64,000 nucleotides of DNA from Nautiliaceae bacterium (GTDB taxonomy: Bacteria; Campylobacterota; Campylobacteria; Campylobacterales; Nautiliaceae), in assembly GCA_027038555.1 (NCBI GenBank), contig JALVVX010000002.1, positions 1-64,000 of the forward strand. Direction: 5' to 3'. Shown here piece after piece: positions 36,743 through 50,569 of this stretch; position 1 is the stretch's first letter, and the number at the start of each line of letters is the position of its first letter. The notes beneath the pieces were generated by a model that searched no databases, had not been told where the DNA came from, and was given only the letters and a program-made list of their open reading frames with translations. A program made the translations under genes and the position numbers.

Positions 36743-37402
36743 ATGCAATTTTTATACCATCCTGATACTTCCGATACAATAGTTTTAAGCGGAGAAGCTC
36801 ATAAATATCTTTTTAAAGTAAGAAGGATAAAAAAAGACGAAACGCTAAAAATAAGAAATTTAAAAGACGATTATATTTATAATTACAAAATAAAAGAGAT
36901 AAACAAAAAAGAAGCCGTTTTGATTTTGGATAAAAAAGAGTTAAAACCAAATAAACCGACTAAATTTTTTCATCTCGCATGGTGCATAATCGATCCTAAA
37001 AACATAGAAAAAACACTCCCGTCTTTAAATGAGATGGGAGTGGCGAAAATAAGTTTTGTTTACTGCGATTTTTCACAAAAAAACTTTAAACTCAAAATTG
37101 ACAGACTTAAAAAAATTTTAATCAATTCAAACCAACAGTGCGGAAGAAGTGATTTAATGGAAATTGAAATAATAAATTCAAGTAAAGAATTTTTTGAAAA
37201 ATATGAAAATTTCACGGCTATTGATTTTGACGGTGAAAAAATAAAATGTGATAAAAAATATAAAAACCCGTTTTTAGTCGGTCCCGAGGGAGGTTTCAGT
37301 GAAAAAGAAAGAGCTTTTTTCAAAGAGAAAATCAAATTTGAAAGTTTTATTTTACGAAGTGAAAGTGCTGTTTGTGCAATTTCGTGCAAAATTTTATTAT
37401 AA
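36743..37402 (+). CDS. rsmE: 16S rRNA m3U1498 methyltransferase
   Basis: A SPOUT-fold methyltransferase acting on 16S rRNA U1498. The 219-residue protein has an N-terminal PUA-like part (LSGEAHKYLFKVRRIKKDETL). Its C-terminal SPOUT knot contains FSQKNF, NQQCGRSD, LVGPEGGFSEKE and ILRSESAV, the SAM-binding motifs of RsmE. It is slightly short at the C-terminus but has all key loops. It is divergent from the AAA+ gene; 26 bases separate it from the response-regulator gene of the polysaccharide operon, which may be co-transcribed. Confidence 0.9.
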   Translation: MQFLYHPDTSDTIVLSGEAHKYLFKVRRIKKDETLKIRNLKDDYIYNYKIKEINKKEAVLILDKKELKPNKPTKFFHLAWCIIDPKNIEKTLPSLNEMGVAKISFVYCDFSQKNFKLKIDRLKKILINSNQQCGRSDLMEIEIINSSKEFFEKYENFTAIDFDGEKIKCDKKYKNPFLVGPEGGFSEKERAFFKEKIKFESFILRSESAVCAISCKILL

Positions 37403-37428: not shown

Positions 37429-38064
37429 TTGAAAATAGCTTTAATTGAAGACGAACCTTTAATTAGAGAGACTCTACATGAACTTCTCCAAACCGAATAT
37501 GAAACCCAAAGCTTTGAAAATATTAGAGATTTTTTTAAAACTGATAAAAAATTCGACATAATTGTAGGAGATATAAATCTTCCTGACGGAAATTTATTAA
37601 ACGAACTTAAAAAATTCCCTCATTTAATCGAAAATTCATTGCTAATAATAATATCAGGAGATGGTCAACTTGAAAATATAAAAAAATCTTTTGACTTAGG
37701 AGCAGTTGATTTTATAAAAAAACCATTTGAATTTGAAGAGCTCTTACTTAGAATCGAAAGATTTGTAAAAAATAAAAAAGATATAAAAATAAGCGAGAAC
37801 ATTATATATTCACCTTCAAAAAAAGTTTTAATTGTCGATAATGAAATAGTAGAATTAACATTTAAAGAATCGGCATTTTTAGAACTATTGATAGAAAAAA
37901 ATGGAGCATATGCAACATTCGGTGAAATTGAAAACAAAGTCTGGGGAGAGCCGATAGTGCCTAATACATTAGCGGCACTTGTAAAAAGACTGAGAAAAAA
38001 ACTTAAAAAAGATATAATCGAATCAAAAAGATATTTGGGATACAGACTCATCAAGTCACGTTAA
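37429..38064 (+). CDS. OmpR-family response regulator of the polysaccharide operon
   Basis: A 211-residue DNA-binding response regulator. The receiver domain (1-115) has the acidic pair in ALIEDEP, the phospho-acceptor Asp in IIVGDINLPDG (about residue 48), a Ser/Thr position in IIISGD and the conserved Lys in FIKKPFEF. The C-terminal winged helix (about 125-211) contains LTFKESAFLELLIEKNG and VKRLRKKLKK ... RYLGYRLI. The start is TTG behind AAAGG. It precedes the kinase-FecR-TPR gene, its probable partner, and seven genes that look like an exopolysaccharide pathway. Confidence 0.9.
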   Translation: MKIALIEDEPLIRETLHELLQTEYETQSFENIRDFFKTDKKFDIIVGDINLPDGNLLNELKKFPHLIENSLLIIISGDGQLENIKKSFDLGAVDFIKKPFEFEELLLRIERFVKNKKDIKISENIIYSPSKKVLIVDNEIVELTFKESAFLELLIEKNGAYATFGEIENKVWGEPIVPNTLAALVKRLRKKLKKDIIESKRYLGYRLIKSR

Positions 38065-38118
38065 TATCATTTTTATATTTTAAGATTTTCATTTAAATAA
38101 AAAAGTAAAGGGTTAAAG

Positions 38119-39939
38119 ATTTTTAAAAACAAAACTCATAATCTTGCAAAAATTTTTTTTCACGAATTAAAAAATAAATTATTGGGGATAAAATTAACTT
38201 TAACTCTTGCTTTAAAAAAAACAGATAATATAAATAATTTAATAGAAAAAGCTCACAAAGGACTTGATGAAAGTATAGATTTAATAAAAGATTACCTGAA
38301 TTTGGAACAATATAAAAAAACAAAATTTTTAAAACATTCTTCTATTTATTTGAACTCTCTTATAGAAGAAATACTTCACGAACTTGAAAGTGAAATAAAT
38401 AAAAAAAATCTAATCGTTTATTACAATGTTCCCGAAGAAAACCTAATAATCAAAACAAATAAAGAATGGCTCAAAAAAGCTCTTTTAAATATTATACACA
38501 ACTCCGTAAAATATAATAAATTAAACGGTTCTCTTTTTATAAATATTGAAGAAGTAAAAAACGGATATCTTATAATTGTAAAAGATACCGGAATCGGTAT
38601 ACATGAAGAAGATAAAGAAAAAATATTTGAAAAATATTACACAAAAGACAAAAAAGACGGCAGCGGTATAGGACTTAATTTTTCAAAAACGGTTATAGAA
38701 TCTTTGGGAGGTAAAATATCATTTGATTCAAAACCTGGAAAAGGAACGGTTTTTTATATTTACTTGCCAAAAGTAAGCAAAAAAATAAAATTAAAAATCC
38801 TGGCTTCTGCATTGGCGGGATTTATTTTAGTTTCTTTTATTGCAATCGATTATTTTTATTGTCTTATACCTCAAAAAATAAAAATTGAAATTTCAGACGG
38901 TATTAAAATTATAAAATTTGAAAACGGAATTGTGGCAAAAGTAGATAAAAACGATAAAATAAAGATAATTGCATACAAAAATTTATTTAATACGAAAACA
39001 AGAAATAAACTCATTTTACAAAAATCTGATATAGAAATAGCAACTAACGGCAATAAAATTCAAATTGTTACACCTAATACCTCTTTTACAAATTTAGGGA
39101 CGAAATTTGAAACAATATCAAAAAACAAAACAGCTGTGAGCGTATTTCAAGGTAAAATAAAAAATAAAAAAACAGTAGTTAAGAGTGATGAAGGATTAAT
39201 TGTCGCTAAGACAATACAAAAAGTTCCCCTTCCTGATAAAATCACTTTTTTACAAATAAAAAACAAACCAAAATTAGTAATTAAATGGCAAAGTTCCTAT
39301 AATTTTTTTAAAATATTAATTTCAAAAGATTCATCATTTTCAAATCCTCCTATTTACGGTTTTAATATTTCAAATAAAATATTTTCACCTGATATAAACG
39401 ACGGTGAATGGTATATTAATATCAAAGCAAAACATAATGATCTTTATTCATTACCGGTTATTAAAAAATTCATTTCATTAAACAATTATTATCAGGCATT
39501 GAATTATTATAAAAACAATAATATTCAAAAAGCGCTTGAATTTATAAAAAAAAGTGTATTAACAATTAAAAAAGCATCGCCTTTACCTTACTATTTATAT
39601 GCTAAAATTCTTTTCAAATTAAAAAATTACGCCAAAGCATTAAAATATATAAAAGAAGGAGAAAAAGTGGGGCAAAAAGAAGAAATAAAACTGTTAAAAG
39701 CAAAAATATTTTATCAAACAAGAAAATATAAAAAAGTTTTAGAAATATTAAAAAAACCTTCATCCGAAGAAGAAAAACTGCTTGTTGCAAAAGCATATTA
39801 TAAATTGGGTAAATATAAAACGGCAAATAAATATTTATATAGAATACTTGAAAAAAATCCCGATAATAAAGAAGCGAAAAAATTTTTAACTCTTCCTGCG
39901 AAGCTGAAAAAAGAAGGAATTTTCTATGAATTTAATTGA
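38119..39939 (+). CDS. Histidine kinase with FecR-like and TPR output region
   Basis: A 606-residue hybrid. The cytoplasmic kinase comes first: H-box FFHELKNKLLGI (His15), N-box NIIHNSVKYN, G1 DTGIGI, G2 GSGIGLNFSK. It is followed by one transmembrane helix (about 230-250), a FecR-like region (NTSFTNLGTKFETIS) and C-terminal TPR-like repeats, probably periplasmic. No ATG, GTG or TTG exists between the upstream stop and the H-box. ATT 38119 has a well-placed AAAGGG six bases upstream and is the best start. The TTG at 38182 would delete the phospho-acceptor histidine. The stop overlaps the next gene by 14 bp. Confidence 0.82.
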   Translation: MFKNKTHNLAKIFFHELKNKLLGIKLTLTLALKKTDNINNLIEKAHKGLDESIDLIKDYLNLEQYKKTKFLKHSSIYLNSLIEEILHELESEINKKNLIVYYNVPEENLIIKTNKEWLKKALLNIIHNSVKYNKLNGSLFINIEEVKNGYLIIVKDTGIGIHEEDKEKIFEKYYTKDKKDGSGIGLNFSKTVIESLGGKISFDSKPGKGTVFYIYLPKVSKKIKLKILASALAGFILVSFIAIDYFYCLIPQKIKIEISDGIKIIKFENGIVAKVDKNDKIKIIAYKNLFNTKTRNKLILQKSDIEIATNGNKIQIVTPNTSFTNLGTKFETISKNKTAVSVFQGKIKNKKTVVKSDEGLIVAKTIQKVPLPDKITFLQIKNKPKLVIKWQSSYNFFKILISKDSSFSNPPIYGFNISNKIFSPDINDGEWYINIKAKHNDLYSLPVIKKFISLNNYYQALNYYKNNNIQKALEFIKKSVLTIKKASPLPYYLYAKILFKLKNYAKALKYIKEGEKVGQKEEIKLLKAKIFYQTRKYKKVLEILKKPSSEEEKLLVAKAYYKLGKYKTANKYLYRILEKNPDNKEAKKFLTLPAKLKKEGIFYEFN

Positions 39940-41239
39940 TATTATAAATAAATCTGATATTGCTTTAATAGAAGGAGAAAGTAAACTCGGAAAACTAACT
40001 TTTGCACTTTATGCTTATTCGCAAAATGAAAAAATAGAAAAAATCACTATTCTCTCATCGATTCAAAAAAAACTGATGCAAAAAAGATTGCAATCCATTA
40101 AAAACTTAAATGATAAAAATATAAACAGAATTTTGGAAAATATCGAATTTTTATGTCTTAAAGAAAACTGGCTTGAAATAAAAGCCTCTTACGGATTTGA
40201 TTTTATTTATGAAGACTTAGAGAGAATAATCAGAAATACAAATTGTGATGCTTTAATTCTTCATAGGCCTGATTTAATGTTTAGTAAAACCGAATATGAT
40301 CTTGCAAGACTTTTTCTTGAAAAATTTATAGAAATTGCAAACAATAACGGGAAAAAAATATTTATAACATCAGACACAGGACATTTTATTACCAGATTTT
40401 TGGAAAATTATACGGATATATCATTACAGATGATAAAAAAAGAAAATGCCAGAGAAATTATAATTAAACATTCTCTTTATCCGGTATCATCAAATTCATA
40501 TGAATTTATTTTTAAAAACAACAGTTTCATACTTTCAAACGATACAAATAACAACACGAAATCACCTGTTTCAAAAAACGATATGTTAATTATTTCTCAA
40601 AATAATAGATTCCGAAAAATACATACTTATATCTTTGATAGATATTTTAACATCGATTTTGCTTCAAATCTCAGTGAAGTTATAAAAAAAATAGAAAATA
40701 AACCTGAAATAATAATTTATCAGGATATTGAAAATATTCCAGAATTTGATATATGTTCAACTGTAAAAAAACTTTCTCCAAATTCAAGTATTATATTTAT
40801 ATCAAATAAAGATTATATAAGAACGGAAGACAAAATAGATGCTATTCAAGCAAAATGTTATGAAGTTTTCAGTAAAAATTTTAATATCGAAGAATATATT
40901 TTGACAATTGAAAAATTGAGCAATAATTTCTTTTATTCGAATAAATTAAAACTTCTACCTCCTCAAAAAATAGCGACAAATTACGAAAATTTCTGTAAAT
41001 CAATAAAATCCCTTTATAATGAAAGAATATTTTTCTCAGTCGTGGAATCTACCGAATTTAAAGATGAAATAACAAACAAATTAAGAACTCATGATATTGT
41101 ATATAAAAAAGATGACTTTATTTATTTGTGTCTTGTGAACGTAACAAAAGAGATGTTTGAAAAAAATATTAAAGAAAAATTTAATCTTACGGATGAATAT
41201 CATTTTATTGAAGCCATAGAGTGGGACGGTAAATGCTAA
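39926..41239 (+). CDS. BcsE-like degenerate NTPase/REC/GGDEF protein
   Basis: A 437-residue cytoplasmic protein that I read as three degenerate domains. The first is a RecA/KaiC-like part (1-about 210) with a P-loop-like GESKLGK (17-23). The second is a receiver-like part (about 218-330, MLIISQNNRFRKI ... SIIFISNKDYI) without phospho-acceptor. The third is a GGDEF-like end (about 345-437) where LRTHD-IVYKK-DDFIYLCL aligns with the RxxD-x5-GGDEF stretch. The RxxD inhibitory-site motif (Arg387-Asp390) is kept and the catalytic GG is lost. This order matches BcsE, a cyclic di-GMP receptor of cellulose secretion. Homology is inferred from layout. It overlaps both neighbours. Confidence 0.65.
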   Translation: MNLIDIINKSDIALIEGESKLGKLTFALYAYSQNEKIEKITILSSIQKKLMQKRLQSIKNLNDKNINRILENIEFLCLKENWLEIKASYGFDFIYEDLERIIRNTNCDALILHRPDLMFSKTEYDLARLFLEKFIEIANNNGKKIFITSDTGHFITRFLENYTDISLQMIKKENAREIIIKHSLYPVSSNSYEFIFKNNSFILSNDTNNNTKSPVSKNDMLIISQNNRFRKIHTYIFDRYFNIDFASNLSEVIKKIENKPEIIIYQDIENIPEFDICSTVKKLSPNSSIIFISNKDYIRTEDKIDAIQAKCYEVFSKNFNIEEYILTIEKLSNNFFYSNKLKLLPPQKIATNYENFCKSIKSLYNERIFFSVVESTEFKDEITNKLRTHDIVYKKDDFIYLCLVNVTKEMFEKNIKEKFNLTDEYHFIEAIEWDGKC

Positions 41240-44200
41240 AAAAATTATTAATTATATCTACTGTTTTTATAACCGGATTTGCATTTAAAATCGATATTAA
41301 TGTTAAAAATTTACAAACTATTATATCACAAAATCCAAACGATATACCAAATAGACTTATTCTTGCCAAATATTATGAAAAAAAAGGCGATTATGCAAAA
41401 GCTATTGTTTTTATAAATCAAGTATTAAAAATAGACCCTAAAAACAAAAAAGCTCTGTTTCTTAAAAAAGAAGTACTTTCTCTTCAAAACACACAAAATC
41501 TTAATAAAAAATACGGAGATTTAGATGAGTATATTAACACTCTTTATAAAAAAAACAAATATAAAACAATACTAAACTTTTACAGAAAATATCATCCTTC
41601 ATTAAAACCTCAAACCCTTATAAAAATAGCCCGTGTTGCTATGTGGGAAGGAGATTATGACCTTTCTTTAAAAATATTAAACTCTTTTAAAGAAGATAAT
41701 TTGGATGTATTAGAAATAAAAGCGTATGACTATTTTTATAAAGGTAATGCGATAAAAGCCAACAGATTATTCAAAATTCTTTATAACGCAACAGGACAAA
41801 AAGATTACGGTATAAAATTAATACGGACATATTTAGAACTTGGAGATGCGCTTAGTGCAAAAAAGATACTTTATTCATTAAAATATAAACTTTCCAAAAA
41901 AGAATATAAACAATATTTTGATTTGATTGAAAAAATGCTTTATTCTTATATTAATAACTTAACAGAAAAATACAATCAAAACCCTACATATGAAAATCTA
42001 AAAAATCTTGTCATTTCTTTATATGATTTAAACCCTGAAAAAGCAATATCAATAGTTGAAGATTACCTCAAAAACCATCCGGAAGATTTTAAAGCAAAAA
42101 TTTTACTGGCAAAATTATATACATGGAACAATCAAACCGACAAAGCCGCAAAATTATTGGATACTTTTACAGATACCGAAAATTATCAGGCAAAACTTCT
42201 TTATGGAAAAATTCTGGCATGGAATGGGATGTATAAAAAAGCGAAAATATTTTTGAGTGAAGTTTATCAAAACGGAAATATCAAACAAAAATATGAAGCG
42301 TTAAAAACACTCGGATTTATAGAAATGTGGCAAGGTAATAAAAAAAACGCAAAAAAAATTTTTGAAAACCTTTTGAAAAAAAATCCAAAAGACAAAGAAA
42401 TAAAAGAAGCATTAATGATATTAAACGGCAATATTAAACCACTTATTACTAAATATGAAAAACTTTTGAAAAAAAATCCTTCTAATATGAATTACGTTCT
42501 CAAACTTGCAGATTTATATTATCAACTTCCAAATTACAAAAAAGCCGCAAAATATTATGAAATTTATCTCCAAAACAATCCCGATAAAATTGAGCTTTAT
42601 AAAACTCTTGGAGATATATATCTTGAACTTAAAGAATATTATAAAGGTTTTTCTGACTGGGAATATTATGCTGCTATAAAAAATACCCCAGAAGCATATC
42701 TTGAACTGGCAAAAAGATATTATTGGAACGGCTTCACAAAAGAAGCAATTGATGTATTAAATAAAATTTTAAATAAATATCCTAATTATAAACCGGCAAT
42801 AGAACTTAAAGCTAAAATTCTTAAAGTAAACCCAAGATTCATTAATTATGAAAATCAAACCGCTATTGAAAAGTATTTCACTAATAGAGCGGAAAAATTG
42901 TTGATTTATGGAGATAGAAGCTATTTTGCCGGATTTTATCCAACAGCATCTGAATATTATAAAGAATATTTGTTTATAAAACCAAGTGATGATAAAACCA
43001 GAGAAAAATATGCTTATTCTCTTGAATTTAGTGGAGAGTATAAAAAAGCGGTAGGAGAATTTTACAATCTATTATGGGAAAAAAAAGATCCTATTTTAGA
43101 GTATCATTATGCATATTGTCTTCAAAAAACAGGAAAAATTAAAGAAGCCAAAAAAATATATGAAAAACTCTTAAAGCGAGTGCCAAAACCATTACCTGAA
43201 AAACTGAAAAAATTTATATTTGAATGGAAAAAAGCATGGGAGAGTATGAATTTCGAAAAATACGCTTCGTTTTATGATAAAAGTATAAAAGACAATCTTT
43301 ATTGGAGATTGAAAAAACAAAATATATTTAAAAAAGCAGGATTTATAAGCGTAGGGATTTACGATCCGGTTTTAGTGCAAAAAAAAGGAAATATTTATAA
43401 AATAAAATTTTATCAGGTATACGCTTCTCAGCTAAAAAAAGACAAAGGATATAAAATTCTTTGGATTAAATGTAACAATGAAAAATGTTATATAATCAAA
43501 GAATTATGGACTCCCGGCAAATACAACCCAAATAATGAGAAAAATGCACTGCTTTTACAAATAAAACAAAACCTACAAGAAATGGATTTTAATATTCCAG
43601 TTGAAACAAAAAATAAAAACAACCCTATTAAAAACAATCGTACACAATCTTATGATTTTATCCCTTTGAATAAAATTTTTAAGCAAAAAGCAAGTAACAT
43701 AACACTTGCCGAAAAAAACATTACAAGAGAAACAAATACTTCTTTAATTAAAGAAAACTTAAATATTGAAAAATTTAAAATAGTAAAAGTTACAAAAAAA
43801 AACGCAATAACCAAAGAGATAAAAAAAAGACCCCCTAATTATCTTTTGATTTCATTTAATCATTTTCACGATAATCAAAAAACTCATTATAACCATATAC
43901 AGGCAAAATATTTAAAAAATTTCGGAAGCATTGATGCGGGAGTATTTTTGAGGTTTTTTAAAATAAAACAGAATTCCCAAAAAGATTCGGGAAATATAAC
44001 GGCAGGAATTATCAAATATAACGGATATGAAATAACGGCGGGAATCGACAACGCAAAAAAAAGCAATCTTTACCTTAATATTACAAAAAATTATCTTTTT
44101 CACAAAATAAGCATTTTATACGAAAATCTCGTATATTCAAGAAAAACGATTTGTTCTTTAAATCATACAAGACTTAAATTTGAAATAAGCAGATTCAAAC

Positions 44201-44643
44201 AGCTTGATACTATCAGGGGACTTTGGTATTCAATGGCGCTTGAATCTATCGATGATGGAAATTTTGTTTTAACTCCTCAAATAGATTATGATTTTTATTC
44301 TAATAAAATTTTAAATTCACCTTATGCAATCTTTTTTTCAGGATGGTATCAGTTTAATACAAAACAGAGTGATTGTTATTATTCACCTGACAAAACGGAT
44401 ACAAACATTGTAGGAATCAAATATTATCCTAAAAACGCTTTTGCAGATATTATGCTAAAAGCCGGAATCGGTTACAGTATATGGGACAAATCTTTTTTAT
44501 ATAAAATAGGATTTAACATAGACAAAAATATAAAAATATTTAATTTAAATGCAAAATGTGAATACGCCAATACTTCACCTATTAGTGCGCCAAATAATTA
44601 TAAAAGTTACGAATGTACTCTGAATATGGAAAAAGCATGGTAA
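41233..44643 (+). CDS. Outer-membrane polysaccharide exporter: TPR, NTF2-like and beta-barrel domains
   Basis: A 1136-residue exported protein with an N-terminal signal peptide (KKLLIISTVFITGFAF) and many TPR repeats over about 30-640. An NTF2/SnoaL-like domain follows at about 650-762 (KFIFEWKKAWESMNFEKYASFYDKS ... KGYKILWIKC), then an Asn/Lys-rich linker and a C-terminal beta-barrel from about 866 to a terminal Trp. TPR plus barrel is the plan of PgaA and BcsC, which guide exopolysaccharide through the outer membrane. The NTF2-like insert is not part of those and may bind cell wall or polymer. It overlaps the synthase gene by 7 bp. Confidence 0.8.
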   Translation: MLKKLLIISTVFITGFAFKIDINVKNLQTIISQNPNDIPNRLILAKYYEKKGDYAKAIVFINQVLKIDPKNKKALFLKKEVLSLQNTQNLNKKYGDLDEYINTLYKKNKYKTILNFYRKYHPSLKPQTLIKIARVAMWEGDYDLSLKILNSFKEDNLDVLEIKAYDYFYKGNAIKANRLFKILYNATGQKDYGIKLIRTYLELGDALSAKKILYSLKYKLSKKEYKQYFDLIEKMLYSYINNLTEKYNQNPTYENLKNLVISLYDLNPEKAISIVEDYLKNHPEDFKAKILLAKLYTWNNQTDKAAKLLDTFTDTENYQAKLLYGKILAWNGMYKKAKIFLSEVYQNGNIKQKYEALKTLGFIEMWQGNKKNAKKIFENLLKKNPKDKEIKEALMILNGNIKPLITKYEKLLKKNPSNMNYVLKLADLYYQLPNYKKAAKYYEIYLQNNPDKIELYKTLGDIYLELKEYYKGFSDWEYYAAIKNTPEAYLELAKRYYWNGFTKEAIDVLNKILNKYPNYKPAIELKAKILKVNPRFINYENQTAIEKYFTNRAEKLLIYGDRSYFAGFYPTASEYYKEYLFIKPSDDKTREKYAYSLEFSGEYKKAVGEFYNLLWEKKDPILEYHYAYCLQKTGKIKEAKKIYEKLLKRVPKPLPEKLKKFIFEWKKAWESMNFEKYASFYDKSIKDNLYWRLKKQNIFKKAGFISVGIYDPVLVQKKGNIYKIKFYQVYASQLKKDKGYKILWIKCNNEKCYIIKELWTPGKYNPNNEKNALLLQIKQNLQEMDFNIPVETKNKNNPIKNNRTQSYDFIPLNKIFKQKASNITLAEKNITRETNTSLIKENLNIEKFKIVKVTKKNAITKEIKKRPPNYLLISFNHFHDNQKTHYNHIQAKYLKNFGSIDAGVFLRFFKIKQNSQKDSGNITAGIIKYNGYEITAGIDNAKKSNLYLNITKNYLFHKISILYENLVYSRKTICSLNHTRLKFEISRFKQLDTIRGLWYSMALESIDDGNFVLTPQIDYDFYSNKILNSPYAIFFSGWYQFNTKQSDCYYSPDKTDTNIVGIKYYPKNAFADIMLKAGIGYSIWDKSFLYKIGFNIDKNIKIFNLNAKCEYANTSPISAPNNYKSYECTLNMEKAW

Positions 44644-45941
44644 AAACGTTTTTTATAATTTCTTTATCTATACTTATAGTTTTGATAATGACTTTTTTAT
44701 TAACCAGTTATTATCAAACTTTTTATAGTTTAAACAATATAATTGTAAAAATTGGAATCGGAATAATTCTTGTATTTATTACAATTGTAATTCTTAGATA
44801 TATGCTTCTTTTATTTTTTTCGATATTAAAAGTTATTATGAAAACGGCTGATGAAAAAAACAAATCACTTGCAAAAAGCACTAAAAAAGTTTCCGTTATA
44901 ATCCCTGCATACAATGAAGAAAAGGTAATAGCACAGTCTATGCAATCGATTATAAATCAAACATACAAAAATCTTGAATTAATAGTCGTAGATGACGGAA
45001 GTACTGACAATACTTATTTTATAGCTCAAAAATACTCACATATTCCGTTTGTAAAAGTTTTAAAAAAATCAAACAATGGTAAAGCAAATGCTATAAATTA
45101 CGGTATAAAACATTCATCCGGCGAATTGATAATGGTAGTAGATGCCGATTCCAAACTTGAAAAAGATGCCATTGAACTTATGGCAAGATATTTCGAAAAT
45201 CCTCAAATAGCAGCAGTCGCAGGTTCTGTATATGTAAGCAATCAACATAACATCATTACAAAACTTCAAGCTCTTGAATATATTGAAGGGCTAAATATGG
45301 TAAGAAACGGTCAAGCATTTTTAAAGCTCGTAAATATCATCCCTGGACCCATCGGTATGTTTAGAAAACACGCTTTATATGAAGTGGGACTGTATGACGA
45401 CGATACTTTTGCGGAAGATTGTGACGTAACGCTTAAATTAATTACTCACGGATATAAAATAGATTTTGAATCCGAAGCCATTGCAAAAACGGAAGCTCCG
45501 GAAAATATTTTTGACCTGATTAAACAAAGATACAGATGGACCAGAGGAATTTTACAAGCAATAAAAAAACACAAATCTCTTCTGTGGAATTTCAAAAGCA
45601 ATCCCTCAGCTTCCTTTACAATGTGGTATATGCTTTTTGAAGCTGTATTATGGCCTTTTATGGATTTTTGGGTAAATGTTTTTATTATATATCTTGCTAT
45701 AACAACAGGAGTTTCATTGCTTATATTTTATTGGTGGAGCCTGTTTACCATACTTGACGTAGCAGGGGCACTTTATTGTATACTTATAACAAATGAAAGT
45801 TTATCAATTGTGTTTTATGCAGTTATTTACAGATTATTTTTTATTCAGTTTATAAATTTGATTAAAATATTCTCGACAATAGAAGAATGGTTTGGAATTG
45901 AAATGGATTGGGGAAAATTAGAAAGAAAGGGTAGAATATGA
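44637..45941 (+). CDS. Family 2 processive glycosyltransferase (PgaC-like)
   Basis: A 434-residue inner-membrane polysaccharide synthase. Two N-terminal helices are followed by a GT2 domain with VVDDGSTDNT, VVDADSKLE (DxD), TFAEDCDVTLKL (catalytic ED) and QRYRWTRG (QxxRW), then C-terminal helices. This is the PgaC/hyaluronan-synthase pattern, so a beta-linked hexosamine polymer such as poly-N-acetylglucosamine is the best guess. I start at ATG 44637, inside the end of the exporter gene. No PilZ domain is present, so cyclic di-GMP control would act through another protein such as the BcsE-like one. Confidence 0.88.
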   Translation: MVKTFFIISLSILIVLIMTFLLTSYYQTFYSLNNIIVKIGIGIILVFITIVILRYMLLLFFSILKVIMKTADEKNKSLAKSTKKVSVIIPAYNEEKVIAQSMQSIINQTYKNLELIVVDDGSTDNTYFIAQKYSHIPFVKVLKKSNNGKANAINYGIKHSSGELIMVVDADSKLEKDAIELMARYFENPQIAAVAGSVYVSNQHNIITKLQALEYIEGLNMVRNGQAFLKLVNIIPGPIGMFRKHALYEVGLYDDDTFAEDCDVTLKLITHGYKIDFESEAIAKTEAPENIFDLIKQRYRWTRGILQAIKKHKSLLWNFKSNPSASFTMWYMLFEAVLWPFMDFWVNVFIIYLAITTGVSLLIFYWWSLFTILDVAGALYCILITNESLSIVFYAVIYRLFFIQFINLIKIFSTIEEWFGIEMDWGKLERKGRI

Positions 45942-46120
45942 ATTTACTTGCATTTTTAGCTTTGCTGATACTTATAATAACTATAATAACTCTGGTATTT
46001 GGCATAATAGCTTATTTTTTATACAAAACAAGAGAAAAAAATAAAAAAAACAAAAACAAAAAACTAATTTATGAGGATGTATTAAATGAAGTCGGCGGTA
46101 ATTACGTATTTTTTGAATAG
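45938..46120 (+). CDS. Small membrane protein, possible PgaD analogue
   Basis: A 60-residue protein with a long N-terminal hydrophobic segment (about 3-30) and a basic tail (TREKNKKNKNKK) followed by an acidic end. It overlaps the synthase by 4 bp and the deacetylase by 35 bp, so it is embedded in the operon and very likely real. PgaD, a small partner of PgaC, has an equivalent position but two helices; the match is by position and size only. Confidence 0.65.
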   Translation: MNLLAFLALLILIITIITLVFGIIAYFLYKTREKNKKNKNKKLIYEDVLNEVGGNYVFFE

Positions 46121-47909
46121 ATTAAAAACCTTAACGGTTTTTATTTTTATAACTATTTTGACATTTTTAAGCGGATATATTATTTATCAATTGTTACCTA
46201 ATTTCAAAGATAATTATATATCTTTAAAAACGACCAATTCAGTAAAAATAAAAATACTGTTATCTGACACAACAATAGATATGTTAGGTACTAACGGTTT
46301 AAATCCGGATAAATATAAAAACGATATTCAAGACCTTGCTCTAAAATTAAAAAAAAACGGGTTTTCATATAAAATTATTTCTGAAAAAGAACTTCCTTTT
46401 TTAAATAAAAACGATATACTTTTTGCACCTGATACATATGCGCTTTCAAATTTCGGCAAACAAAATATAAAAAATTTTTTAAATAAGGGTGGAACTTTAA
46501 TTTTTAATTTCCGATTCGGATATTTTGATGAAAAAAACCGTTTTTTTAACGCCAAAACAATAGAAAATATCACAGGACTTAAAAAATCAATAGATTCTAT
46601 ACCTAAAAACGAAGCAACTTTTTATATTCAAAAAAGAATCTCACCACTTAATATGTCAAATGTTCCGTTTAGACAAGATTTGGTAGTGTATGACCCGCTG
46701 CCAATATTTCATTCCAATTATGTTCCCGATATCGTTTTGACAAACTGGTCAATTACAACTCCACCGATGGTAAATAAAAAATATCTTTCGGTTTATGATG
46801 ACGGTATTGCTTGGCATGGATTTTACGGTAAAGGCAAATGGTTTTATTTCTCTTTACCGACATATGTTTTTTTGGATATGAAAGATAAAACATTTAAACT
46901 TATTTTTAATAATATTATAAATTTTTCTAAAAGACTTATCTCAATTTCATCTTATCCTTTTGTAGATAAAAAAAACGGAATCTTTATTTCAGAGGATACA
47001 GAATATAAATATCCTTACGGATATAATTTCGCCACTCTCGCGAATAAACACCATATTGATGTCACGCTTTTTGCAGTGGCAAAACTTGCAAAAAAATATG
47101 AAAACATAACAAAAGCAATAGCAAAATATAAAAACTGTGAAATAGGCTCTCACAGCTATTCGCATATTAAAATAATGAAAGCTCCGTTAGATATCGAAAA
47201 AAGAGAAATAATATACTCCAAACAATTGCTTGAAAAAATTACAGGTAGAAAAATTTACGGTTTCAGACCCCCAAGAGAAGAAATTGATAATACTATGGAA
47301 AAACTCATTAAAAAAGCCGGATATATTTATGTTATGGAAAAATCAAAACCGTTTTTACTTCCTCTGAAAAGAGAATACGGAATTATAACGGTTCCAAGAC
47401 TTGGGACAGATGATTATACATATTTAATAGACACTGATTTTAATAAATCTGAAATTCTTAAACACATAATTCTTGAAACAAATTTCCTTACTTCATTAAA
47501 CGGCGTTTATACTTTAAGCGTTCATACACATTTGCTATCATATAAATCAAACATCACCGTGTTAGATGATTATTTTACTTATTTGAATCATCATCTAAAT
47601 TTAACCCCCCTAAAAGGTAAAGATATAGCACTAAAATCGATACAAACACAAAACATTTATTTTAATTATACAACTACAAATAATGTTATTTATTTACATA
47701 TTACAAACGAAAACAAAACACAAATAAAAAATCTTTCTTTTAGACTTTATAATCCGAATATAAAAATATTAAGCATAACTCCTGAACTCATCAATTATAA
47801 ACTCAAAACATTATTGCATAATAAAATAAGAAAATATTATGATTTACAATTAAATAAAATTCCGCCCAAAACAACAGTTACAATTTTTATTAAATACAAA
47901 AAATTATAA
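46086..47909 (+). CDS. Membrane-anchored polysaccharide deacetylase with N-terminal amidotransferase-like domain
   Basis: A 607-residue protein with an N-terminal anchor helix (about 15-37). Residues about 50-285 form an alpha/beta domain ([18 protein letters not shown] ... [11 protein letters not shown]) resembling class I glutamine-amidotransferase or ThuA folds. Residues about 295-490 form a NodB deacetylase with FISEDTEY (Asp304), GSHSYSH (His356, His360), GFRPPREEI (Arg394) and TLSVHTHLL (His480). The metal and catalytic residues are intact. It would partly de-N-acetylate the polymer in the periplasm, the PgaB role. A beta-rich C-terminus follows. It is the last gene of the operon and is convergent with rdgB (6-bp overlap). 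Confidence 0.85.
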
Positions 47910-48485
47910 AACTTTTATAATTTTTTGTGCCAAATCAAGAGCTTTTACCCTGTGAGAAATCTTTTGCTTTATTGATTCGTCAAGTTCGCCTAATGTCTTA
48001 TTGTAACCTTTTGGAATAAACATAGGATCATATCCAAACCCTTTCTCTCCCCTTGCTTCATCAATTACATCGCCATACATAAAACCGTGTGTTGTAAAAA
48101 CACCATAAGGTGTTGCAATCGCAATTGCCGCGGTATAAAATGCCGGAGTTTTTTTAATATTTCTTTTTTTGAGTTCATTAATAAGTTTGTTTAAATTATC
48201 TTTATCACTCGCATTTTCTCCAGCGTATCGTGCGGAAAATATTCCGGGTTCGTTATTTAAAGCAGGAACACTTATACCGCTGTCATCGGCTATTACAATA
48301 TTTTCAGGAAGTTTTTCATAAATTGCTTTTGCTTTAATAATGGCGTTTTCTTTAAAAGTTCTTCCGTTTTCCTCAATTTCAAAAGGTTCTATTAACTCAG
48401 TATAAGGAATTACATCGTAACTGTTAAGAATTTTCTTAATTTCTTTTATTTTACCTTTATTTCCGCTTGCAACAATTATTTTCAT
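47904..48485 (-). CDS. rdgB: Inosine/xanthosine triphosphate pyrophosphatase
   Basis: A house-cleaning enzyme that hydrolyses ITP, dITP and XTP. The 193-residue protein begins [18 protein letters not shown]. It has [51 protein letters not shown] and a terminal [15 protein letters not shown], all RdgB/HAM1 signatures. It overlaps the GGDEF-EAL gene by 4 bp and is convergent with the deacetylase gene. Confidence 0.95.
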
Positions 48486-50569
48486 TCCTGCTCCTTATCA
48501 TATTTATCCTCTATATCGGGCTTTGGAGGTGAAAAATAATATCCCTGAAAATAATCAACGCCTAAATTTTTAAGTTTTTCAAATATCTCTTTATTTTCTA
48601 CAAATTCTGCAATAGTACTTATTTTCATCTCTTTTGCAAAGGAAATAATGGTTTTTACTATTATTTCGCTGTTTTTATCCGTCAATATGTTTTTTATCAG
48701 ACTTCCGTCTATTTTAACCCCGTCAGGTTTAAGTTTTATCAGATAATCAAAATTCGAATACCCGCTTCCAAAATCGTCAATATAAATAAGTGCTCCCAAT
48801 TTTTTAATATTATGTAAAAATTCTTTAACAGTTTCATTCTCACCCACATCTTCACTTTCCACTATTTCAAACGTCAAAAGTTTTTTATTTTCAAGGGATT
48901 CGATTTTATTTAAAATATAATTTCTCATATCTTCATCATCAATATCTTCAAGCGTGAGATTTATGGAAATAGCAACATTTTTATCATTAATCTTTTCAAT
49001 CGCTTTTTTTATAACTCTTTTGGTAATTTCAAGATAAAGCCTTGATTTTTTTGCAACTTCCAAAAAGAAAAAAGGAGATACTATGCTGCCGTCTTCATCA
49101 ATAAGCCTTACAAGAGCTTCATATTTTATAATTTTCTCATTTTTGTCTACAATAGGCTGGAAAAAAGGAACAATTCTATCATTTTCAATCGCTTTTTTTA
49201 TTTTAGCAAGCCATTCAAGATGTTCTTTGTATTTATTTAAATCTTTTATTTCATTACCGAAAACTATATCTTTTTTCATCTCTTTTGCAAAGTCTAAGGC
49301 AATATCTGCTCTTATAAAGTCTTTTTTCTCATAACTCACACCAGCTCTAAATCTTACAATTATTTCATTCATATCAATTTTGTAAGGTTTTTCAAGTTCA
49401 TTTAAAATTTGTTTTATTCTTTCATTAAGTTTTGATTTGTCAATATTTTCTGGAAATAAAACTGCAAATTCATCAATATCAATATGAAAAAGTTTAAATT
49501 TATATTTCTTTTTAAGCTTTTTTAATCTTTTGGCAACATTTTTAATAAGTATATTTCCAGTTTCAACACCAAAATAAAAATTTATATCTTTAAATTTATC
49601 AATATTAATTAAAACAATGACATATTTTTTTTCATTTACAATATCTATGAATTTATTTCTGTTTGGAAGCAATGTCAACCAGTTAAAATAGTTCTTTTTA
49701 TAAGCTATCGCTTCATATTTTTTTAAAATTAAAAAAGTTTTATTAATCTGTTTTTTAAGATTTTCAAATTCTGAAAAATTCATTTTATCTTTTATAATAG
49801 GAAAATTTCCTTTTACTGCCGTTTTAAAATGTTGAAGAATTTTATATATATCTTTTTTTATATTTTCATTTAATTTGTAAAAAATATAAAGCCCAATCGA
49901 AAAGAAAACTATTCCTATCGTTAAAATCATAATAAAAAATTGATTAACTTTATCTATAACTTTCTGATAAGGGAAAACTATTGAGATTATACCTCTTACA
50001 TCTCCCAAATGATAATTAAAAGCTCTGTCACCATAAATTTTAACTATTTTTTTATACAAATTAGCCGGCACGTCTTTATAAGGCTTTCCATGACATTTAA
50101 GGCATGATTTTTCAATTACAAGTTTTCTCGCATAAAAAACATGCCTTAGAGGGAAATACTTATCCTCTGAATGAACAGTAAAATACTCATTTTTATTTTT
50201 ATGTTTTTTAAAATATTCAATTGCTTTAAGCTCAGTTTCATTGGGTTTATCTTCAATACTTCTATATTTATCAGATGTCTGTTTAACATAAAAACCGTTA
50301 TTTCTTAACATTTTTGCAACCTGATTGGTGGCATAAGCCGGGGTTAGAGCAAAAAGTGAGAGATTTTTATCCTCAATCTTAACATTTGGAGCAATTAAAG
50401 AAAGATAATGTCTGTAATATATAAGTGTTTTTGCCTCCAAACGAGCTTGTTGAATCTTTTCTTTTATCACAATTTGAGTTATCAAAAAGTATAAAAAGCC
50501 TATCACCAAAAATGCAATTATTAAACCTGTTAATGTAGTTTTTAAAAACTGTTTTTTTATATTAGTCAT
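48482..50569 (-). CDS. Haem-sensor GGDEF-EAL cyclic di-GMP phosphodiesterase
   Basis: A 695-residue membrane protein. A periplasmic sensor (about 35-210) between two transmembrane helices carries a c-type haem motif, CLKCH (156-160). It resembles the Tll0287-like/DUF3365 haem domain of redox or gas sensors. A GGDEF domain follows with IDIDEF in place of GGDEF, so it is probably catalytically dead. The EAL domain keeps [40 protein letters not shown] and FQGYYF, so phosphodiesterase activity is expected. Its gene lies directly after the polysaccharide operon in convergent orientation and could lower cyclic di-GMP in response to redox state. Confidence 0.88.

Follow-up and report, generated by a model that had tools for sequence, protein, structure and literature searches.

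A candidate cyclic di-GMP-gated exopolysaccharide cluster with a BcsE-type putative receptor in a Nautiliaceae bacterium

We analysed a window of 64,000 nucleotides (GC content 31%) from a Nautiliaceae bacterium (assembly GCA_027038555.1, contig JALVVX010000002.1, positions 1 to 64,000). Seven open genes on the plus strand occupy positions 37429-47909 of this window, and from gene 2 to gene 7 the end of each gene overlaps the start of the next. An earlier reading of the letters alone, referred to here as the original prediction, had described a regulated exopolysaccharide operon of seven mostly overlapping genes in a Campylobacterota host. The order that it gave is correct and our domain assignments agree with it; as for the host, the third protein has two named relatives in a pattern scan of bacterial genomes, both from Nautiliaceae metagenome bins, and one of these is 82% identical. 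We propose that the cluster secretes a partly de-N-acetylated N-acetylhexosamine exopolysaccharide through a cyclic di-GMP (c-di-GMP)-gated, synthase-dependent route, and that a BcsE-type receptor works here outside cellulose synthesis. We put the probability of this reading at about 65%. The genes and the key motif are as follows (TPR, tetratricopeptide repeat; GT2, glycosyltransferase family 2).

37429..38064, plus strand: response regulator of the OmpR type (receiver and winged helix), 211 residues, TTG start (Pfam Response_reg 57 bits, Trans_reg_C 48 bits)
38119..39939, plus strand: histidine kinase with a C-terminal FecR-like and TPR part, probable ATT start (HATPase_c 84 bits, FecR 22.9 bits, TPR)
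39926..41239, plus strand: third protein, a BcsE-type putative c-di-GMP receptor (AlphaFold model, PDB structure matches, profile alignment to BcsE)
41084..41095, plus strand: receptor motif RTHD (R387-D390), I-site-like (RxxD is invariant across 30 homologues and aligns to BcsE R415xGD418)
41233..44643, plus strand: outer-membrane exporter with a TPR array, an NTF2-like domain and a predicted C-terminal barrel ending in W (TPR and Cds6_C matches)
44613..45941, plus strand: processive GT2 polysaccharide synthase with ED and QRYRW motifs (TIGR03937 PgaC_IcaA match, identity to PgaC, tree)
45938..46120, plus strand: 60-residue single-helix membrane protein with a basic juxtamembrane part and a conserved YxFFE tail (18 orthologues; BcsF-like by topology)
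46086..47909, plus strand: membrane-anchored periplasmic deacetylase (Polysacc_deac_1 57 bits, invariant motifs, AlphaFold model, PDB structure matches)

The third protein and BcsE

BcsE is a degenerate NTPase-REC-GGDEF receptor that binds c-di-GMP at an RxxD motif. BcsF recruits it to the membrane, adding its own tail to the NTPase-like domain so that the sheet there is complete (PMC7439463, PMC11470070). In the open-access literature, we found BcsE in cellulose systems only.

The third protein of the cluster, judged by its model, is a distant structural relative of BcsE and a putative c-di-GMP receptor. The AlphaFold model, for which 22 homologues served as input, has a mean pLDDT of 89. When this model was compared with the whole PDB by Foldseek, the top four matches were chains of Escherichia coli BcsE from the Bcs macrocomplex (9fo7/9fp0/9fnn), with E-values from 6.5e-16 to 7.8e-15 over 474-481 columns, that is, over the full length; KaiC and RadA ranked below them. 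The protein consists of a degenerate P-loop NTPase-like domain, a REC-like domain and a degenerate GGDEF-like domain, which is the order found in BcsE, and a Pfam scan of the sequence gave a weak REC match. A profile-profile alignment with six BcsE sequences was co-linear and in register over 325 columns. It paired R299xxD302 of the receptor with R306xxDE310 of BcsE, and R387xxD390 with R415xGD418.

Both RxxD motifs are invariant in 30 receptor homologues, and the GGDEF residues are lost. Across the same homologues the Walker A motif ranges from GKST or GKTT (loci L048 and L049) through GKLT to complete loss in the family designated f7. As RxxD is invariant while Walker A varies, the I-site appears to be what selection keeps. 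By analogy with BcsE, the protein would bind c-di-GMP. The original prediction had called it BcsE-like, and the confident model with BcsE at the top of the PDB search, the co-linear alignment with its matching motifs and the invariant RxxD all bear this out.

The conserved core and its enzymes

Using the receptor as a query against 200 genomes of the order, we extracted the surrounding DNA and compared the open frames around the matches with the window proteins and with profiles. The receptor, exporter, GT2, 60-residue protein and deacetylase form a block in 25 loci from several Campylobacterota families (two of the contigs end within the cluster). Because the same neighbours recur in so many loci and families, the arrangement is far from chance. 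Most families have the order receptor-exporter-GT2-small protein-deacetylase; the order exporter-receptor-GT2-small protein-deacetylase is found in f7 and in one f4 genome. In profile searches of the phylum, full-length receptors (E below 1e-90) and deacetylases (E below 1e-190) were confined to the same 10 of 397 genomes, so the co-occurrence that the original prediction had proposed to test was found. Low-scoring profile matches in this search were discarded; they look like ordinary response regulators and align in the receiver part only. Outside Campylobacterota, the receptor search was the one pattern scan, which recovered close relatives only. We found no paper describing this system in the open-access literature.

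The best NCBIfam match of the GT2 is TIGR03937 PgaC_IcaA, at 194 bits and below the cut-off of 422, followed by NodC, a chitin-oligomer synthase, at 122 bits. Over 309 residues, the GT2 shares 33% identity with E. coli PgaC. In a tree, the GT2s of the system form one clade (support 83/99) that lies among processive synthases and is separate from PgaC, NodC and BcsA; lipid and protein glycosyltransferases were absent from this tree and scored lower in the NCBIfam family search. The class of the GT2 and the conservation of the core as a block support the exopolysaccharide operon of the original prediction, which had named clustering with lipid or protein glycosyltransferases as the outcome that would speak against it. 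A cellulose product was rejected: the GT2 falls outside the BcsA group in the tree and carries no PilZ domain. Plasmid GT2 matches from Prevotella, Deinococcus, Sulfitobacter and Sphingomonas were also set aside, being long fusion proteins with other neighbours that do not belong to this system.

The 60-residue protein stands between the GT2 and the deacetylase in every complete cluster. Its 18 orthologues share, in the helix, invariant I14, T18, F21, G22, Y26, Y29, K30, R32 and E33, and the tail is usually YxFFE. By inspection of its topology, it resembles BcsF in size, in its single helix, in its basic cytosolic tail and in its pairing with a BcsE-type gene. It gave no match to PgaD, which has two helices where this protein has one. 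We propose, by analogy, that the protein links receptor and synthase, and that the receptor would contact this anchor.

The deacetylase has a transmembrane (TM) segment, an alpha/beta domain, a catalytic domain like that of carbohydrate esterase family 4 (CE4) with E303-D304, H356xxxH360 and H480, and a C-terminal beta domain. E303-D304, H356xxxH360, R394 and H480 are invariant in 19 deacetylases, which provides the metal triad of D and HxxxH together with the catalytic His. These residues fit a metal-dependent deacetylase in which Glu replaces the usual catalytic Asp. The AlphaFold model (pLDDT 90) spans the domains of NDST1 (557 columns) and of Agd3 (6nwz; 734 columns), and also matches many CE4 catalytic domains in the PDB. 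Because Agd3 acts on N-acetylgalactosamine (GalNAc) and NDST on N-acetylglucosamine (GlcNAc), the fold cannot settle the sugar.

The substrate of Agd3 is GalNAc and not chitin or chitosan oligomers (PMC7229062). Agd3 (CE18) and PelADA of Bacillus cereus (CE26) are alike to the deacetylase in having an alpha/beta domain, a domain with HxxxH and the catalytic His, and a beta domain; PelADA, by its description, also has the same size and TM anchor (PMC13254593). They differ from it in that their first motif is DD where ED is found here, and in that the partner synthase here is a GT2. Agd3 and PelA were not among the sequence-profile matches of the deacetylase in the PDB, so that the likeness to Agd3 lies in the fold only. 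No similarity to E. coli PgaB was detected, and the Pfam scan gave no separate glycoside hydrolase domain.

In the exporter, an NTF2-like domain accompanies the TPR array in 10 of 18 members. About 265 residues make up the C-terminal part, which is probably a barrel; its last residue is W in 17 of 18 relatives. No PgaA-barrel match was among those listed. In four loci (L045, L046, L049 and L094), separate frames encode the TPR part and the barrel part of the exporter.

Two kinds of gene follow the deacetylase in relatives. In f7, the gene 3' of the deacetylase encodes a glycoside hydrolase family 8 (GH8) enzyme, and for the one that we searched the closest solved relatives are chitosanases (1v5c, 7cju; E about 1e-80), with cellulases at 2e-26 and other GH8 enzymes weaker. 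No GH8 gene lies in the window's cluster. Most f1 members and loci of f18 and f16 have at this position a gene that we call A4 (gene 8), which encodes a secreted protein of about 325 residues with the conserved acidic motifs NPEYNEN and FQEMR (L036:17141-18136, L039:16920-17894 and orthologues). A4 has no Pfam or PDB match and is possibly an unclassified glycoside hydrolase. It is missing at the locus in the three genomes of the window's genus. A search of the window's genome for A4, run without a positive control, gave no match; the same family profile finds the orthologue in L094.

A proposed system and competing explanations

Our model starts at the inner membrane, where the GT2 would polymerize the chain and extrude it. 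The receptor would bind c-di-GMP at RxxD of its degenerate GGDEF domain. The 60-residue protein would hold the receptor at the synthase in the manner of BcsF and BcsE, its helix packing in the membrane and its tail adding to the N-terminal sheet of the receptor. The c-di-GMP-bound receptor may then activate or assemble the synthase, a part that is played by PilZ and BcsE in cellulose synthesis and by PgaC-PgaD in the synthesis of poly-N-acetylglucosamine (PNAG). In the periplasm, the anchored deacetylase would remove acetyl groups to give a cationic chain, and the TPR-barrel protein would export it. The kinase may sense the state of the envelope through its periplasmic FecR-TPR part and set transcription through the response regulator. 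The analysis bears directly on gene order, conservation, co-occurrence and the class of the GT2, on the predicted fold and the motif of the receptor, and on how the deacetylase is predicted to fold and its catalytic residues. The direction of regulation and the identity of the polymer are parts of the model that we infer.

By our tests, the cluster is a full member of none of the cellulose, PNAG and Listeria Pss systems, and it would work like such c-di-GMP-gated synthases. It shares with the E. coli-type (type II) Bcs system the three degenerate receptor domains in the same order, the I-site RxxD, a short single-helix membrane protein with a basic tail and a TPR exporter with a predicted barrel. 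It differs in having a PgaC-like synthase without PilZ and a deacetylase, in lacking BcsB, BcsQ, BcsR and BcsG, and in that the 60-residue protein has no BcsF sequence match. PgaABCD/Hms likewise has a PgaC-related GT2 and, by role, a deacetylase and a TPR exporter; here, in contrast, the deacetylase has another domain plan with no hydrolase domain, PgaD is absent and the putative c-di-GMP receptor stands apart as a soluble protein. In Listeria monocytogenes PssA-E, a PgaC/IcaA-like GT2 (PssC) is controlled by PssE, a separate in-operon I-site GGDEF receptor (PMC4125290), a pairing like the one proposed for our cluster. Unlike our cluster, Pss has a BcsB homologue (PssD), it belongs to a Gram-positive organism and has no outer-membrane exporter, and PssE is described without an NTPase-REC part (PMC4125290).

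Several results count against our model. The whole-chain TM-score between the receptor and BcsE is low (0.30), with a large root-mean-square deviation. BcsE itself has been observed in several conformations (PMC11470070); low TM-scores therefore fit flexibly linked, moving domains, although this is not proof. The profile-profile score to BcsE is weak when taken alone (E 0.0037, probability 9%), the Pfam list for 22 receptor members holds no BcsE family match, and a PDB sequence search with the receptor profile found mainly receivers, with BcsE at E 0.32 only, though in register. BcsR and BcsQ, the partners of BcsE, are absent from the cluster. The 60-residue protein has no detectable sequence kinship to BcsF (hhalign E 0.14, 9 columns), and homology between the two was thus not supported. 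Finally, a receptor relative occurs without the cluster in L048, and f7 relatives lie outside it in L099 and L097. The L099 gene adjoins an identified glycyl-tRNA synthetase beta-subunit gene; L095, L096 and L097 were placed in a like context by their matching layout, with the synthetase gene or a gene of like size. These f7 relatives are full-length or N-terminally shortened, the N-terminal domain sometimes being missing, and their RxxD is intact. The receptor family is therefore not tied to this cluster alone: of the scattering that the original prediction had named as a refutation, a minority of the receptor homologues (L048, L095-L097 and L099) give an example, whereas the core is kept as a block.

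One explanation that bears on the receptor itself is that the third protein binds nucleotides or serves as a scaffold and is not a c-di-GMP receptor, its likeness to BcsE reflecting shared RecA and REC folds only. KaiC and RadA do come next after BcsE in the structure search, and many members retain a Walker A that is nearly complete (GKLT, or GKST or GKTT in L048 and L049). However, every KaiC and REC structure ranks below BcsE, which is matched along the entire chain, and RxxD is invariant in the 30 members even though f7 has lost Walker A; we consider this explanation improbable. A somewhat stronger competitor, though still an unlikely one, is that the cluster is a divergent Pga system: the product would be ordinary poly-beta-1,6-N-acetylglucosamine, and the BcsE-like protein would act as a side regulator. 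This would suit the scoring of the GT2 as PgaC/IcaA and its identity to PgaC, and a TPR exporter, a deacetylase and a small membrane protein fit the Pga parts list by role. Yet the GT2 is far under the PgaC cut-off and its clade is apart from PgaC, the deacetylase has no PgaB similarity and a different domain plan, PgaD found no match, nor did the PgaA barrel among the matches listed, and relatives carry a GH8 gene or an unclassified conserved gene alongside the cluster. Filing the cluster as PNAG proper was rejected because the PgaB, PgaD and PgaC cut-off tests fail. Thus, the Pga-like synthesis of the original prediction holds for the GT2 only; the deacetylase folds like Agd3 and NDST. As a description of the whole system it is not supported, and the 60-residue protein is nearer to BcsF by topology.

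If the c-di-GMP-gated system that we favour is correct, the polymer may still be of more than one kind. It is possible, but we hold it only tentatively, that the product is a poly-glucosamine of a chitosan-like, beta-1,4-linked kind, or a related hexosamine with 1,4 linkage, and that the GH8 of one family turns it over. The chitosanase-like GH8 after the f7 deacetylase and the NodC match of the GT2 favour this; the absence of GH8 from the window's cluster, the broad specificity of GH8 enzymes and the presence of A4 at the matching position in f1, f18 and f16 do not, and linkage is not readable from a GT2 sequence. We find doubtful a galactosamine polymer resembling Pel or fungal galactosaminogalactan, as a three-domain deacetylase of the Agd3/PelADA type might suggest. 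Agd3 is among the two best multi-domain structure matches of the deacetylase, and PelADA shares its size and TM anchor. However, the synthase is a GT2 and not a PelF/PelG pair, the deacetylase matches the GlcNAc-acting NDST1 as well, and the PDB search gave no Agd3 or PelA sequence match. A Pel system was rejected, as the operon has neither a PelF GT4 synthase nor PelG.

A bolder and more speculative extension, which we think less probable than the chitosan-like product taken by itself, is that a BcsE-type receptor and a BcsF-type anchor form an exchangeable c-di-GMP gate, and that Campylobacterota pair this gate with a non-cellulose GT2 to make a chitosan-like (1,4-linked, partly deacetylated) exopolysaccharide. 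A distant BcsE at work in another synthase system would show that a degenerate receptor of the NTPase-REC-GGDEF type, together with its small membrane anchor, is a general c-di-GMP gate for polysaccharide synthases, and that such a gate is older or more mobile than cellulose secretion. Campylobacterota, which are common at hydrothermal vents, would gain a defined candidate biofilm system with one receptor, one motif and one polymer.

Regulatory genes and neighbours

The two-component and c-di-GMP control stated in the original prediction is likely. Orthologues of the response regulator occur in 9 loci; apart from the window's family, just two f18 loci have the kinase and regulator ahead of the core. 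The f16 genome L094 has its own kinase-regulator pair, downstream of the cluster. As seen in its sequence, the kinase has an N-terminal cytosolic catalytic core with an invariant H15 acceptor, followed by a single TM helix. Its FecR match (22.9 bits) is just below the 24-bit cut-off. The sensor part (FecR, TPR) is placed behind the catalytic domain and not before it, which is an unusual order.

The kinase frame has no ATG, GTG or TTG ahead of the phospho-acceptor histidine. An ATT at 38119-38121 is common to three congeneric genomes (the window, L033 and L035), and other relatives start at this position with ATG, TTG or GTG. Thus, the most likely start of the kinase is the ATT codon at 38119. 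Outside infC/pcnB, conservation of an AUU start would be unusual, and kinase expression could then depend on IF3.

The window's genome has 16 GGDEF matches and one PilZ. One GGDEF gene lies near the cluster, outside the operon, and it counts with the 16 matches in favour of c-di-GMP control:

48482..50569, minus strand: Tll0287-GGDEF-EAL protein, a probable c-di-GMP phosphodiesterase (EAL 216 bits, GGDEF 63 bits, Tll0287-like 101 bits)

By inspection, its GGDEF motif is degenerate and its EAL looks intact. A GGDEF-EAL gene also adjoins the cluster in L036. The cluster itself is bounded upstream by a gene at 36743-37402, whose product looks like an RsmE-type methyltransferase by inspection, and downstream by a minus-strand gene at 47904-48485, whose product looks like a HAM1/RdgB-type pyrophosphatase on the same basis. 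Elsewhere, other polysaccharide genes adjoin the cluster in single genomes. In one (L043:4545-13035), the receptor cluster directly follows a bcsA-bcsB-bcsC-like set, and alginate lyase, alginate-export and beta-helix genes stand immediately ahead of the receptor in one f18 genome (L045:10564-18457).

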